Assembly (NCBI GenBank): GCA_937951485.1
Contig: CALEDJ010000058.1
Coordinates: 1 to 64,000, forward strand
Direction of reading: 5' to 3'
From: an uncultured bacterium
GTDB lineage: Bacteria > Hydrogenedentota > Hydrogenedentia > Hydrogenedentales > CAILVY01
DNA length: 64,000 nucleotides
Shown: piece by piece, positions 1-60,936 of the stretch
Position numbering within the stretch: the first letter of the stretch is position 1
Layout: each line of letters opens with the position of its first letter
Program-made: the position numbers and the translations under genes
Notes under the pieces: generated by a model
Told to the model about the DNA's origin: nothing
Databases searched by the model: none
Seen by the model: the letters and a program-made list of their open reading frames with translations, nothing else

Positions 1-216
1 ATAACAGCATACCTCAGGTTTCGCGGCAAACGCCTGCTCCCGCTGGGAGGGGGAATAACAGCATACCTCAGGTTTCGCGGCAAACGCCCTCTCCCTCTGG
101 GAGAGGGAATAACAGCATACCTCAGGTTTCGCGGCAAACGCCTGCTCCCGCTGGGAGGGGGAATAACAGCATACCTCAGGTTTCGCGGTAAACGCCCTCT
201 CCCTCTGGGAGAGGGG
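1..216. repeat. Tandem array of four 54-bp units
   Basis: Four head-to-tail units start at 1, 55, 109 and 163, each beginning ATAACAGCATACCTCAGG. Units 1 and 3 look identical; units 2 and 4 are nearly identical to each other and differ from 1 and 3 in the CTCCC/GGGAG palindromic part. The pattern is therefore A-B-A-B, as if a 108-bp dimer had been duplicated. There are no unique spacers, so it is not a CRISPR array. The array may continue left of the window. Confidence 0.95.
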
Positions 217-397
217 TGGGGTGAGGGGGAACAAAACAGGACACCTTGGCACACGTGTCAATGATGCCTCAAGAATGCCATAGAGAGGTTTTCGTATGGA
301 ATAAGCCCGCCACATCATCTTGATTATTCAACAGGATTTTCCAAGGGTTTCGGGCATGGTCTTTCATCTTCTCAATAATCTGTTTTGGACAACACTG
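1..397 (-). mobile_element. Partial copy of MITE family 1 (left part outside window)
   Basis: Reading the minus strand from 397 down to 1 gives a sequence clearly related to 48030-48353: both open with CAGTGTTGTCCAAAA, then share the CATGCCC/CCCTTG, GATGATGTGGCGGGCTTAT, ATCATTGA and CCAAGGTGTCC blocks and the C-rich CCCTCACCCCACCC segment. The terminal repeat is at 383-397. The other end lies beyond base 1, so no target duplication can be tested. This copy differs from the complete one by holding four 54-bp units internally. No coding capacity. It is inverted relative to the copy at 48 kb. Confidence 0.85.
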
Positions 398-18572: not shown

Positions 18573-18674
18573 GCCCGACACCCGGGGGTTAATATGGAAA
18601 AATGTGGGAAAGTATGGGGGCGATATCCGGGGCCGATGTACGCGCCGGTTCGCCGCAAAAAGGGGGGAATCCTC

Positions 18675-21600
18675 ATGAGAACCTGCATGCAATCAAAGCG
18701 CCACGTTGCAAACGCATGGATATTTGTGTGCGTCATGACGTTTTGTTCCCTTGTCGCTCCCTGCGCTTCTGGACAGATTTTGATTGACAGCATCGAAGCA
18801 TTGCAGAAGATTGGCAGCGTTCCGGCGTATCCGTTGCACGGCGACTACCTGCTGACGCAGGACATTGACGCCACGGACACGGCGGCATGGAATGATGGAG
18901 CGGGTTTTGAACCCATCGGAGACGATACCACCCCGTTTACCGGTTTTTTTGACGGCCAGGGCCATGTCATCTCCGGGCTGGTCATCAATCGTCCCGACGA
19001 AGACATGGTGGGGTTGTTCGGTTGTGTGGGTGGCGGCGGCGAGATCAAGGAGGTTGCCTTGGAAGGTGGCATGATTTCCGGAAAAGATGGCGTGGGTGCG
19101 CTGGTCGGAGTGATTATTGCAGGCGGCGTGGCAGGAAATTGCTACGCGGGTACAGCGGTGTTGGGGCGGTTTGCCGTTGGCGGATTGGTCGGGGGCAACC
19201 TTGGCGCTATGACGGAGTGCACAACGGAAAGCATTGTCGAAGGTGAAGATTATATCGGCGGACTGCTTGGACTGAACAATGGTACGCTATCAGGGTGCTC
19301 GGCTGGTGGCGAAGTCACAGGCGATGCAATCGTAGGGGGGCTACTCGGCGCCAACGACGGGGGACTGGTAAGTTCATGCGATGCGGCAACCGAGGTGCGG
19401 GGAAACAGGGCGGTCGGCGGATTGGTGGGCGCGAATACCCCGGGCAGCATGATAACCGAAAGTTATGCGACAGGGTCGGTTGCCGGACACATCGGCGTCG
19501 GGGGTTTGCTGGGATATAACCAGGGTTCGGTGACTGTTTGTTATGCTTCGGGCGCAGCCGTGGGGGATACAGATATCGGTGGATTCGTGGGGTATAACGA
19601 AGACCTGGTGGCGGGATGCTACGCGACCGGCCCAGTGTCGGGCTATTGGGGGGTCGGCGGATTGGTCGGGCGCAACGACGGGCCGGTATCCGTATGTTAT
19701 GCGGCTGGACTGGTCGAAGGCGTTGCCAAAGTGGGCGGATTGATAGGCTACCGGCCAACAGGCGGGGCAGTGTCGGCTTCGTTTTGGGATGTAAAAACCA
19801 GCGGCCAGTACGATTCCGATGGGGGAACCGGTTTTCCTACGGAAGACCTGAGGCATCAGGCGACCTTTACTGCGGCGGGATGGGATTTCATTATTACGTG
19901 GGCAATCCTTGAAGACGTCACCTATCCCTGGTTGCGGGCGCTGCCGCCTGCTTCCGCTACGTTCACGGTGACGCTTCGGTCGGAACACGGCGCCGTTTTG
20001 AGAGAACCGGATGTGAGCGACTATCCCGCCTGGTCAGTGGTGTGGCTGACCGCGACGCCGGACCCTGGCTACGCATTTGCGGGTTGGGCAGGCACCGGCC
20101 TTCCGGGGGAGTCATTGATATTCCACGCCAACCCAATGCCATTTGCCGTTCATCATGATCTTGTGCTGGAGGCCGTATTTCTGCCCATCGGTCCGAAAAC
20201 AGTGGATAGCGTGGCAGATTTGCAGCGAATCGGCAACGATTCCCAGTGGCCTGTCCATTGGTCCTATGTGCTCCAAGACGATATTGACGCCTCCGAAACG
20301 GCGGGATGGAACGAAGGGCGCGGCTTTAGCCCCATAGGGGCATCGGGAATAGCGTTTGCCGGGAAATTTGACGGGCAGGGCCACACCATTTCCGGCCTGG
20401 TCGTTCACCGCCCAGAGGAAGACTACGTCGGACTTTTCGGCGCTGTTGGGAGCGGCGCGGAAATCTTCAATCTTGACCTGGGCGACGGGACGGTTGCAGG
20501 AAAGAACAATGTCGGCGGCTTGGCCGGCCGGAACAGGGGCGCGATGTCCGGATGCCACACCGCATTGGCCGTCGCGGGGAACTATGATGTCGGCGGGCTG
20601 GTCGGCAGGAACGAGGATCCAGGCATGATAACGGATTGCTACGCTTTGGGCACGGTTGCGGGCGGCCGCTTTGCGGGTGGCCTGGTTGGCGCAAATGGCG
20701 GCATGGTCTCCCAAAGTCATGCGGCGGGCGCGGTTTCGGGAACCGATTATGTTGGCGGTCTGATCGGTATCAACGGATTGGAATCCGACGAATGGGGCAC
20801 AATTCTTCCCGGCACGGTGACCAATTGCCATGCAATCGGCGCGGTCTCAGGTAATATCAATATCGGAGGGCTGGTCGGAAAAAACGAATCAGCGTCTGAG
20901 ATAAGCCAGTGCTACGCCACGGGCAGGGTTGAAGGGAATCGCACTCTTGGCGGATTGGCGGGTGCAAACGCAGGGCGGATTACAGACTGCCACGCCGCCG
21001 GCGCGGTCGTTGGCGTGGGAAATAGTGTCGGCGGCTTGGTTGGCGCAAATGATATGGACGGTACGGTGGCGTCATGCCATGCCACGGGAGACGTAGAAAG
21101 CATGGGGGAATATGTTGGTGGTTTGGTGGGGTACAACTGGTACAGCGCACTGACGGGATGTTACGCGACCGGTGCCGTCCGAGGGACAAAAAGCGTCGGC
21201 GGGCTGATCGGGCTGAACCGGGGGGGGGCGGTGGCGCTATGCTATGCGGCGGGCGCGGTTTCGGGATACCTGGAATTGGGGGGCCTGATCGGCTGGCACC
21301 GCGAAGGCACCGTCTTGAAGTCTTTTGCGTCCGGCGCGGTTTGGGGATACAAGCACCTCGGCGGGCTGATCGGCCGTAACGATATGAGCGTGGTGAACGA
21401 TTGCTATGCGCGGGGGGCCGTTTCCGGTTTTGAGGGAATCGGGGGACTGGCGGGATGGAACGCGAGCAGCGAGGTGAAGTATTGCTACGCCGTTGGTGTG
21501 GTTTCCGGCTACGCGGACGTCGGCGGGTTGGTCGGCGAAGATGCCGCCGGCACCGTGACGTCTTCGTTTTGGGACGTGGAAACGAGCGGCCAGGCAAGTT

Positions 21601-22064
21601 CCGCCGGCGGCGGGACCGGGCTGCCCACCGAAGAGATGATGCTGCAAAGCACCTTCGAGACGAGGGGATGGGATTTCACCGAAATCTGGGGGATTCTTGA
21701 AAGCATTTCATATCCTTTCCTCCTTTGGATGCCGGAGGAGCAAGAGCGCTACCACAGCGCGGATCAGGATGCCGACAACATCATCAGTCTTTCCGAGTTA
21801 TTGCGCGTGATCCAGTTCTACAACAGCGGCGGCCTCCACTGCGCCGAACCGCCGGAGAGCACCGAGGACGGCTATGCGCCAGGGGAAGAGCCGGCGCAAG
21901 AGGGTTGCACTCCGCATAGTTCCGACTATAATCCGCAGGATTGGGCGATCAGCCTTTCCGAATTGCTCCGCATCATCCAATTCTTCAATGCCGGCGGCTA
22001 CCACGACTGCCCGGATGCGGCCCCGCCCACGGAGGACGGCTACTGCGTCGGCCTGCCGCTGTAA
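18675..22064 (+). CDS. Giant secreted GLUG-motif repeat protein with duplicated C-terminal module
   Basis: About 1129 residues from ATG 18675 (GGGGGG upstream). A signal peptide ends near CASGQ. Two blocks of GLUG repeats, each starting with an ID-A-W-G-FDGQGH entry module (residues about 35-390 and 508-1010), contain roughly twenty units of the form VGGLVGxNxGxVxxCYAxG. Between them is a divergent InlB-like domain (TVTLRSEHGAVLREP, residues about 428-505). Both blocks end with a SFWDVxTSGQ...GTG motif. The C-terminus carries two copies of an ISLSELLRVIQFYNSGG...TEDGY module with acidic DQDADN residues, a calcium-binding or dockerin-like pattern. It is probably an extracellular adhesin or surface protein. 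A strong promoter precedes it. The family is recognised; the ligand is not. Confidence 0.85.
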   Translation: MRTCMQSKRHVANAWIFVCVMTFCSLVAPCASGQILIDSIEALQKIGSVPAYPLHGDYLLTQDIDATDTAAWNDGAGFEPIGDDTTPFTGFFDGQGHVISGLVINRPDEDMVGLFGCVGGGGEIKEVALEGGMISGKDGVGALVGVIIAGGVAGNCYAGTAVLGRFAVGGLVGGNLGAMTECTTESIVEGEDYIGGLLGLNNGTLSGCSAGGEVTGDAIVGGLLGANDGGLVSSCDAATEVRGNRAVGGLVGANTPGSMITESYATGSVAGHIGVGGLLGYNQGSVTVCYASGAAVGDTDIGGFVGYNEDLVAGCYATGPVSGYWGVGGLVGRNDGPVSVCYAAGLVEGVAKVGGLIGYRPTGGAVSASFWDVKTSGQYDSDGGTGFPTEDLRHQATFTAAGWDFIITWAILEDVTYPWLRALPPASATFTVTLRSEHGAVLREPDVSDYPAWSVVWLTATPDPGYAFAGWAGTGLPGESLIFHANPMPFAVHHDLVLEAVFLPIGPKTVDSVADLQRIGNDSQWPVHWSYVLQDDIDASETAGWNEGRGFSPIGASGIAFAGKFDGQGHTISGLVVHRPEEDYVGLFGAVGSGAEIFNLDLGDGTVAGKNNVGGLAGRNRGAMSGCHTALAVAGNYDVGGLVGRNEDPGMITDCYALGTVAGGRFAGGLVGANGGMVSQSHAAGAVSGTDYVGGLIGINGLESDEWGTILPGTVTNCHAIGAVSGNINIGGLVGKNESASEISQCYATGRVEGNRTLGGLAGANAGRITDCHAAGAVVGVGNSVGGLVGANDMDGTVASCHATGDVESMGEYVGGLVGYNWYSALTGCYATGAVRGTKSVGGLIGLNRGGAVALCYAAGAVSGYLELGGLIGWHREGTVLKSFASGAVWGYKHLGGLIGRNDMSVVNDCYARGAVSGFEGIGGLAGWNASSEVKYCYAVGVVSGYADVGGLVGEDAAGTVTSSFWDVETSGQASSAGGGTGLPTEEMMLQSTFETRGWDFTEIWGILESISYPFLLWMPEEQERYHSADQDADNIISLSELLRVIQFYNSGGLHCAEPPESTEDGYAPGEEPAQEGCTPHSSDYNPQDWAISLSELLRIIQFFNAGGYHDCPDAAPPTEDGYCVGLPL

Positions 22065-48011: not shown

Positions 48012-48029
48012 CCTGCCGCATCTGACGAT

Positions 48030-48353
48030 CAGTGTTGTCCAAAACAGATTGTCAAGGGAATGAAGGGCTATGCCCGGAACCCTTGAGAATCCTGTGGAAT
48101 CAGGATGATGTGGCGGGCTTATCCTATGCGTAAACCGCTCGGTGGGTATTCCTGAGATATCATTGACCCCGTTACCAAGGTGTCCCGTGTTATCTCCCCT
48201 CACCCCACCCCTCTCCCCGTGGGAGAGGGGGTATATGGCGAAACCTGCGGCATGTTTGTGCTCCCTCTCCCTCCGGGAGAGGGGTGGGGTGAGGGGAAAG
48301 GTTACCATAATAGAAGGCTTTTCCCGGCAATCAGAATATTTTGGACAGCACTG
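48030..48353 (+). mobile_element. MITE family 1, complete copy with 9-bp target duplication
   Basis: 324-bp non-coding element. Terminal inverted repeats of 15 bp match at 14 positions: CAGTGTTGTCCAAAA (48030-48044) and TTTTGGACAGCACTG (48339-48353). The flanks are a perfect 9-bp direct repeat TCTGACGAT (48021-48029 and 48354-48362). Inside is an inverted repeat of 22 bp: a C-rich CCCCTCACCCCACC... block at 48196-48217, with its complement at 48275-48296. A related, inverted copy lies at 1-397. Confidence 0.95.
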
Positions 48354-48464
48354 TCTGACGATGTTTCCTGCCGGGTTCAGAGTCGGCAACACGATGACAG
48401 GGGGACAAATCCCGGTCAAAGGGCATGACCGGCAATGGTTGCGGTGATTGTCGGAGACGCCGCG

Positions 48465-59502: not shown

Positions 59503-60936
59503 TTATTTCCTGCGCCGGTAGGCCAGTGCGCCGGCCCCGGCAATCACGCCGACCAGCAGTCCAAGGCCGATGGCCCCTGCGGCGGGCATCTTCTCACCAC
59601 TGCCGCTCTGGAAAGGATTCAGCACCGCTTCAACGTATTGGGCTCGTGTGCGACCCGCGTTTATCGTGTTGTCGTATTCAACCAGATTTGTAAACGTGTC
59701 GCCATCGGGGTCGCCGGCGGCCGATAAAGGTTCACCTACTGTCGTCAGGGTGGTGTAGGCGCCTGTCAGACCGGCCCCCGCCAGGGCGGCGCGCAACGTG
59801 CTGCTGATGGTCGCAAAGCCTGCAAGCACATGTTCATAGGCTGCCATCCCGAATGGAACATATAATGGCTCGGCGCGGACAATTGCCAGATTGGCCTCAA
59901 AGGTGCACACCGCATCATGCGACAGCGGGTGGTTGCGGTTGCAGATGATCTCTGCAAGCACCGCCAGTTCCCAACTGTCCGGAATACCGGAACCGTCCAC
60001 ATCGTGGGTATCCCAATTCCACCCGAACAGCCCATAGAAGAACGCGCCTTCGGCATCAAAATTGGGGCAAGGCTGCAACAAATCACCACTGCAGGGTTCG
60101 CCTTCCCCTTCGCCTTCCCCTTCGCCCTCCCCTTCGCCCTCCCCTTCTCCTTCGCCTTCCCCTTCGCCTCCGCCCTGGTTCACATCGGGGACACCATCGC
60201 CGGTAATCACCACTGCGTAAATGACATCCCAAGGCCCGCGCACGCTCCACATTGGATAGTCATCTCCGGCATCTGCCGCAATAAGCGCCAAGGTTGCAGC
60301 AGACAATGGGTTGCCATAGGGTCCGGGATAATATGTCCACGCACCGCCATTGACACGATACTCAACAGCGACCGAGCCATCCCCGCCCTTTGTCGAACGC
60401 GTCTCGAACAAATCACCAGGGCTGAGTGCAATCGGAACGTTGCCACCAATAACACCGTTATTGTCGCTTGCCAGCACCCACGTACCCCCGCCGATATCCT
60501 CACGGTATTCGATCCCCGCAATCGCCAGTTGTCCTCCGCCTGAACCCGGCGTGGCATCCATGTCAATCCCGAGATAAAAGCGCTTGCGTTGGAGCGTGGG
60601 TGGGTCTCCGCCAAGGTAGTTGCCATCTGTCGGGACGATACAGCCGCCCTGCACCACATATCCATTTGGTTGCTGTGTGGCATCCGGAATGGCCATGTGT
60701 GTCACGCCACCGTCCAGGGTGAAGACGCCCTTGACGCGACCCGCATTCTGGATTTCGGTGCGCCAGGTTCCATCCCCATTCGGAACCCAGTTGAAATAGT
60801 CCGGCGGCGTCGGAACATTAACAACGCCTACCATGATCCCTGTTTCTCCGGGGAGGCCGGAGTAAACAGCCGTTCCGCCCCACGATGCGCCGGCGATGAC
60901 AAGCATGCCTGCCAGAATCGTCAGTGTCTGCCTCAT
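59503..60936 (-). CDS. Secreted protein with Gly-Glu linker and C-terminal sorting-type tail
   Basis: About 477 residues from ATG 60936 (AAGGAG upstream). A signal peptide (MRQTLTILAGMLVIAGASWG) is followed by a beta-rich domain (residues about 25-250; GIEYREDIGGGTWVLASDNN, RVNGGAWTYYPGPYGNPLSA). A linker of about twelve consecutive Gly-Glu pairs connects to a C-terminal region beginning PCSGDLLQPCPNFDAEGAFF, which ends DGDTFTNLVEYDNTINAGRT followed by an EKMPAAGAIGLGLLVGVIAG helix and YRRRK. Signal-plus-helix-plus-basic tail resembles sorting signals such as PEP-CTERM/MYXO-CTERM. It is probably exported and anchored or processed. Function unknown. Confidence 0.75.
   Translation of the reverse strand: MRQTLTILAGMLVIAGASWGGTAVYSGLPGETGIMVGVVNVPTPPDYFNWVPNGDGTWRTEIQNAGRVKGVFTLDGGVTHMAIPDATQQPNGYVVQGGCIVPTDGNYLGGDPPTLQRKRFYLGIDMDATPGSGGGQLAIAGIEYREDIGGGTWVLASDNNGVIGGNVPIALSPGDLFETRSTKGGDGSVAVEYRVNGGAWTYYPGPYGNPLSAATLALIAADAGDDYPMWSVRGPWDVIYAVVITGDGVPDVNQGGGEGEGEGEGEGEGEGEGEGEGEGEPCSGDLLQPCPNFDAEGAFFYGLFGWNWDTHDVDGSGIPDSWELAVLAEIICNRNHPLSHDAVCTFEANLAIVRAEPLYVPFGMAAYEHVLAGFATISSTLRAALAGAGLTGAYTTLTTVGEPLSAAGDPDGDTFTNLVEYDNTINAGRTRAQYVEAVLNPFQSGSGEKMPAAGAIGLGLLVGVIAGAGALAYRRRK
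60096..60168. repeat. Gly-Glu coding microsatellite
   Basis: About twelve imperfect 6-bp units (GGCGAA/GGGGAA on the minus strand, CCTTCC/CCTTCG on the plus) encode the Gly-Glu linker of the gene at 59503-60936. The units differ at synonymous positions. Length is likely to vary between strains or species. Confidence 0.9.

Follow-up and report, generated by a model that had tools for sequence, protein, structure and literature searches.

The window, i.e. the whole 64,000-nucleotide stretch of DNA analysed here, opens with a MITE copy (positions 1-397, plus strand, head to tail) whose tail and terminus resemble those of complete copies; because base 1 of the window is also base 1 of contig C58, the left end of this copy is missing. 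Positions 1-216 are taken up by a tandem array, in which Tandem Repeats Finder recognised 4.0 copies of a 54-bp period with 91% matches and, over 1-215, 2.0 copies of a 108-bp period at 99%. When the units are printed one below the other, units 1 and 3 (1-54 and 109-162) are of type A and units 2 and 4 (55-108 and 163-216) of type B, which confirms both the 54-bp tandem units and the A-B-A-B order with a duplicated 108-bp dimer that an earlier, sequence-only reading of this DNA had proposed. Since the array reaches the contig start, four units are a minimum for this copy. Unit 2 contains a 21-bp palindrome, CCCTCTCCC-TCT-GGGAGAGGG (87-107), that forms a hairpin in the fold and has decayed equivalents at 33-53 and 141-161; the last palindrome and its GTGGGGTGAGGGG tail (195-229, plus strand) make up the outer arm of a REPIN-like pair, and the same motif bounds the array in complete copies. 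The MITE stops at 397 with the terminal inverted repeat CAGTGTTGTCCAAAA (383-397, minus strand, 0 mismatches to the pattern). The adjoining 398-465 belongs to a separate repeat and represents one end of an IS4-like insertion sequence (IS) with the terminus CACAGCCATCCAATAG (minus strand, about 450-465), and no open reading frame of at least 120 aa lies upstream of base 1099 in the window.

A complete but minimal copy, with one spacer and two palindromes, is found on the minus strand at 48030-48353. Both of its terminal inverted repeats (tail side, 48030-48044, plus strand; head side, 48339-48353, minus strand) match the pattern with 0 mismatches, and its flanks carry the target-site duplication TCTGACGAT (48021-48029 and 48354-48362), identical at 9/9 positions. 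That 1-397 is kin to this element had also been proposed from the letters, and alignment of 145-398 with 48279-48029 on the minus strand bears it out (78% over 255 bp, E 1.6e-54); the 'about one unit' attributed to the 48-kb copy corresponds to two palindromes that are spaced by 54 bp and enclose a single spacer. The whole element folds into a long hairpin (z -9.9), and its core (48190-48300) folds as the hairpin of an inverted palindrome pair (z -10.4). A genome search with the window copy returned, besides itself at 100%, 39 further main loci.

The terminus has 87 matches with at most one mismatch in the 4.55-Mb genome, compared with 3 for a reversed control, and pairing of inward-facing CAGTGYTGTCCAAAA termini yields 32 complete elements of 216-985 bp, a set from which pair L061, with a false left end, is left out. 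Complete and cut copies combined suggest about 50 or more elements in the genome. Identity between the two flanks peaks at 9 bp (mean 0.72 versus 0.22-0.31 at the other lengths between 4 and 13 bp); a 9-bp duplication of at least 7/9 occurs in 20 of the 32 complete copies (mean 0.8 and maximum 5 in shuffles) and is weak or absent in the other 12. These termini, complete elements and sharp 9-bp target duplications therefore define a true MITE family, with terminal inverted repeats, a target-site duplication of fixed length and short members devoid of a transposase gene. Its copies avoid genes: of 30 sites emptied of their copy, 12 are spanned by an open reading frame of at least 200 aa, versus 89% of random positions. 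Among 68 genomes of the phylum, only G049 contains the terminus, with two exact matches; the element there has the same type of ends, one copy with a related right end and no transposase. One G049 locus (L270, about 1550-2020), in a genome that belongs to another family of the order, is MITE-like with CAGTACTGTCC ends, likewise with no transposase. The terminal inverted repeat had 0 matches in a collection of other genomes' contigs, and a literature search with its sequence returned nothing relevant.

All 32 complete copies follow a common plan. The head, which measures about 58 bp (33 bp in L044), and CCCCTCACCCCA are followed by the palindrome CCCTCTCCC-NNN-GGGAGAGGG, then by a spacer (about 30-33 bp), a second palindrome and TGGGGTGAGGGG, and most copies also have a tail of about 165-170 bp; palindrome (21 bp) and spacer (33 bp) add up to the 54-bp period. 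Two palindromes and one spacer are present in nine complete copies, the 48-kb copy included, and three to nine palindromes in 23 of the 32. The tandem units thus vary among copies in the manner of a minisatellite or VNTR (2-9 palindromes per complete copy), with 1-8 recognisable spacers per array and a usual step of 54 bp, the distance that separates the palindromes of one-spacer copies. A CRISPR array was considered and rejected, the spacers within one array being near-identical copies, not unique. A separate origin of the window array, by which the earlier reading would have been undone, fails because array and termini co-occur genome-wide and 23 of the 32 complete relatives exceed two palindromes. 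Hence, the claim that a mobile element doubles here as a variable-number minisatellite is strongly supported as regards the link between the two, while 'variable-number' holds across paralogous copies of one genome only. Absent from that reading were the palindrome pair that sets the unit, the invertibility of the arrays and the placement of the window copy within insertion-sequence ends.

What kind of element could give rise to such arrays? We consider it probable (roughly 0.83) that the window starts with an IS4Sa-type MITE which is non-autonomous and in which a REPIN-like pair has become trapped, i.e. two 21-bp palindromes around a 33-bp spacer, and that this element is moved in trans, amplified in place and capable of flipping. 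Alternatively, the palindromes might be REP or REPIN sequences moved by a RAYT (Y1), the arrays having arisen by repeated REPIN insertion and the surrounding terminal inverted repeats by coincidental nesting. REPINs, which are associated with RAYT, do resemble the present pair in that two inverted palindromes form a hairpin and sometimes occur in tandem clusters (PMC3116915); the long hairpin with z -10.4 accords with this view, as do solo palindromes in contigs C16 and C5 and in the relative G012, which bear the same GTGGGGTGAGGG tail. However, the genome contains no Y1_Tnp gene (0 matches, controls positive), MITE termini adjoin 42 of the 47 palindrome clusters present in 2.43 Mb and, unlike in REPINs, the pair is placed between IS4-type terminal inverted repeats with 9-bp duplications. 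Moreover, the outer REP tail is missing from the inner units, and units are array-specific, which suits in-place duplication better than fresh insertion, and RAYT-driven growth is therefore improbable.

According to the reading of a MITE amplified in place, neighbouring palindromes would serve as direct repeats, at which slippage or unequal exchange would add or remove 54 bp; this step may come in multiples, for example as the 108-bp A-B dimer. Spacer identity averages 0.90 within arrays versus 0.73 between them (permutation maximum 0.77) and, because units are so much more alike within than between arrays, each array was amplified separately and in place. Higher-order repeats of 108 bp in the window copy, of 126-127 bp in L044 and L047, and of the A-B-C type in L045 show that more than one unit can be copied at a time. 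The anatomy thus points to slippage or exchange as the mechanism and suggests that the unit number is unstable at a single locus. Conversely, the array could be old and fixed, spread by elements that already differed in unit number and with little or no change in place, and it speaks for such a history that no locus was seen with two unit numbers in the one genome at hand. It is nevertheless quite improbable, given that nearly every array has a private unit sequence (the 0.90 versus 0.73 just described) and that a tree of the flanks, whose branch support is mostly low, requires nine changes between one spacer and several.

In-place change, as the preferred reading has it, extends to orientation. 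The spacers within any one array all point one way, 8 of the 32 arrays are inverted as a whole, and at least six orientation changes are needed on the flank tree, again with mostly low branch support. The firm case of inversion is offered by the 48-kb copy and by the near-identical L053 and L054, with which it forms a supported clade in that tree. Whereas the outer parts of the 48-kb copy and L053 agree directly (70/70 on the left, 173/180 on the right), the 75-bp inner segment, palindrome-spacer-palindrome (48209-48283), does so only after reverse complementation (73/75 flipped versus 55/81 aligned positions direct). The exchange must have taken place in or outside the outer arms, because the palindrome loops invert along with the segment. 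Neighbouring palindromes would in this case act as inverted repeats between which the inner segment flips; since a palindrome repeats its neighbour in direct as well as in inverted orientation, a single pair would suffice for gain and loss of 54 bp as well as for inversion.

About 34 contig ends fall within elements, and four pairs of them can be re-joined via duplications of 8/9 or 9/9 (C76-C65 and C4-C11 at 9/9), so the assembler evidently broke at the arrays. That array and contig end are themselves an assembly artefact of collapsed repeats is nonetheless highly improbable: for all these contig ends, and a join between C34 near 118 kb and the start of C25 that may be chimeric, extra palindromes are present in 23 complete copies that have unique flanks within their contigs, and many of these copies show duplications on both sides.

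The proposed trapped pair in a mobile MITE calls for a helper, and transposition in trans would fall to an IS4-family DUF4372 transposase that acts on the CAGTGYTGTCCAAAA ends and thereby generates the 9-bp target duplications. Searches of the element's own genome (a 94%-complete assembly) gave no match to DDE_Tnp_1, ISAs1 (PF13808) or Y1_Tnp and found no intact helper, one broken DUF4372 gene being present in a related IS whose ends, CACAGYCATCC, are unlike those of the MITE. PF14294 has matches in 19 of the 68 phylum genomes, and relatives possess intact IS4-family insertion sequences with IS4Sa features, DUF4372 and a DDE transposase. DUF4372 insertion sequences of related genomes end in CACTACTGTCC, CACTGCTGTCC, CAGTAGTGTCC, CAGTGCTGTCC or CACAGTCATCC, and 9-bp duplications are readable in most of their printed flanks. 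One of them, L329, supplies an autonomous element with matching ends: its first 11 terminal bases are identical to those of the MITE (11/11), the match ending there, and it is about 1.33 kb long, with ends CAGTGCTGTCCGGTTAA and the 9-bp duplication TTGTCAAGT. Its 394-aa transposase combines DUF4372 with DDE_Tnp_1 (E 1.3e-29), and a YREK motif is readable in the translation as Y-KS-R-WQV-E-LFFKWI-K. The IS4Sa subgroup is characterised by CA------T ends, direct repeats of 8-10 bp and a size of 1150-1750 bp (PMC2266710). L329, with its CAGTGCTGT ends, 9-bp repeat, length, DDE domain and YREK motif, conforms to this description; the MITE and the relatives' insertion sequences share the CA------T ends and 8-10 bp repeats but, unlike IS4Sa members (PMC2266710), the MITE encodes no transposase. 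The shared end and domains of L329, together with these ends, repeats and sizes, indicate that the helper most likely belonged to the IS4Sa subgroup and is now lost or unassembled.

Some copies are surrounded by insertion-sequence remnants. In C58, C25 and C69 the right end of the MITE joins the same 68 bp of IS end, followed by unrelated DNA; these three copies of the 398-465 flank are about 90% alike and end near 465. A fourth copy of the IS end, at C58:75.7 kb, adjoins the broken DUF4372 transposase (30.3 bits, cut-off 25) of an IS with CACAGYCATCCCATAG ends. The relic at C58:75.0-75.8 kb (L284, about 800-1565) is of the IS4 type, has ends CACAGTCATCCCATAG and CACAGCCCTCCCATGG, and its transposase is split into frames. 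In C60 and C34 (L124), the left end of the MITE joins the other end of the same IS, and C25 and L124 have their outer 9 bp, TAACTGATT, in common. Judging from these few contig ends, the MITE seems to be enclosed by a relic of the IS, with one IS end on either side, and the composite seems to have been copied. MITE duplications are mismatched at the IS-flanked copies, where part of the IS has therefore probably been deleted. A join of C58 to C60 via a 37-bp overlap was rejected, since the duplications of the MITE and those of the IS both disagree. At 18300-18560 of L124 (C34 near 118.3 kb), where the outer 9 bp of the IS halves agree with the C25 start, the array side runs into unrelated DNA, which points either to a chimeric contig or to a genuine rearrangement at the array.

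In at least 13 of the 32 complete copies, an unrelated stretch of 24-44 bp replaces a spacer or a palindrome and has sometimes been amplified with the array. A search for the source of these pieces covered 2.43 Mb of the genome, with 64 shuffles that reached a maximum of 17 bp; only two families of pieces match above this maximum, one of them by just 1 bp, which is weak. One piece, common to three elements, has an 18-20 bp match in a response-regulator-like coding stretch, and another an 18 bp match in a NuoF-like stretch, both labels coming from a reading of the frame. It is conceivable, though unlikely, that host DNA, in pieces of 24-44 bp, is captured by the array in the course of repair or template switching and is amplified there, each element thereby turning into a patchwork with copied gene scraps. 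Individual copies depart from the common plan in other ways. The 216-bp copy in L052 (1045-1260) bears the head sequence at both ends and is thus an almost perfect inverted repeat with a single spacer in between. A second repeat with ends TGTAACATTTYAGCGGA and motif GGCGCTTCGCGCCACCC is nested in the MITE tails of L043, L044 and L049 and is apparently itself a small inverted-repeat element. Partial internal duplications in L047 and L038 join tail to spacer at a TT, as is typical of template switching.

MITEs with inner tandem arrays are already known, namely BrickBuilt, MITEPgRS and the pneumococcal BOX; the present family differs from them in its ends, its unit and the whole-array inversion, and one palindrome pair would be behind both growth and flips. 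BrickBuilt and MITEPgRS (464) of Porphyromonas gingivalis, MITEs with an inner minisatellite, share with the present family a leader, a variable internal tandem direct repeat and a tail, an intergenic location, and terminal inverted repeats that match a full IS (PMC4596501, in its available sections). Their unit is 23 or 41 nt long, the terminal inverted repeat is of the IS5 type (GAGACC...) and the same sections describe no palindrome basis (PMC4596501), in contrast to the IS4Sa-type terminal inverted repeat, the 54-bp unit of palindrome and spacer and the whole-array inversions found here. Assignment to BrickBuilt, with its 23-nt unit and IS5-type ends, was accordingly rejected in view of the 54-bp unit and a terminal inverted repeat that begins CAGTG.... 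The BOX elements of Streptococcus pneumoniae, boxA-(boxB)n-boxC, similarly have fixed outer modules, a variable tandem middle, a stable fold and many copies, a likeness of plan; the available part of that account, however, neither describes the module as a pair of palindromes nor mentions an inversion of the array (PMC3049150). As a natural example the family would be a clear one: a single feature, the palindrome pair, would underlie the gain or loss of units as well as the inversion of segments inside a mobile element of bacteria, and one genome shows dozens of outcomes in parallel. The family also connects an IS4Sa-type MITE with the formation of minisatellites, explains many contig breaks of the assembly, and would be useful as a marker for strain typing and as a system in which to study palindrome instability.

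Two further features of the window were noted in passing. A short-period repeat (TTCGCC / TTCGCCTTCCCC) lies inside long open reading frames at 60097-60174, and an open reading frame of 1156 aa at 18594-22064 contains many GLUG motifs (PF07581).
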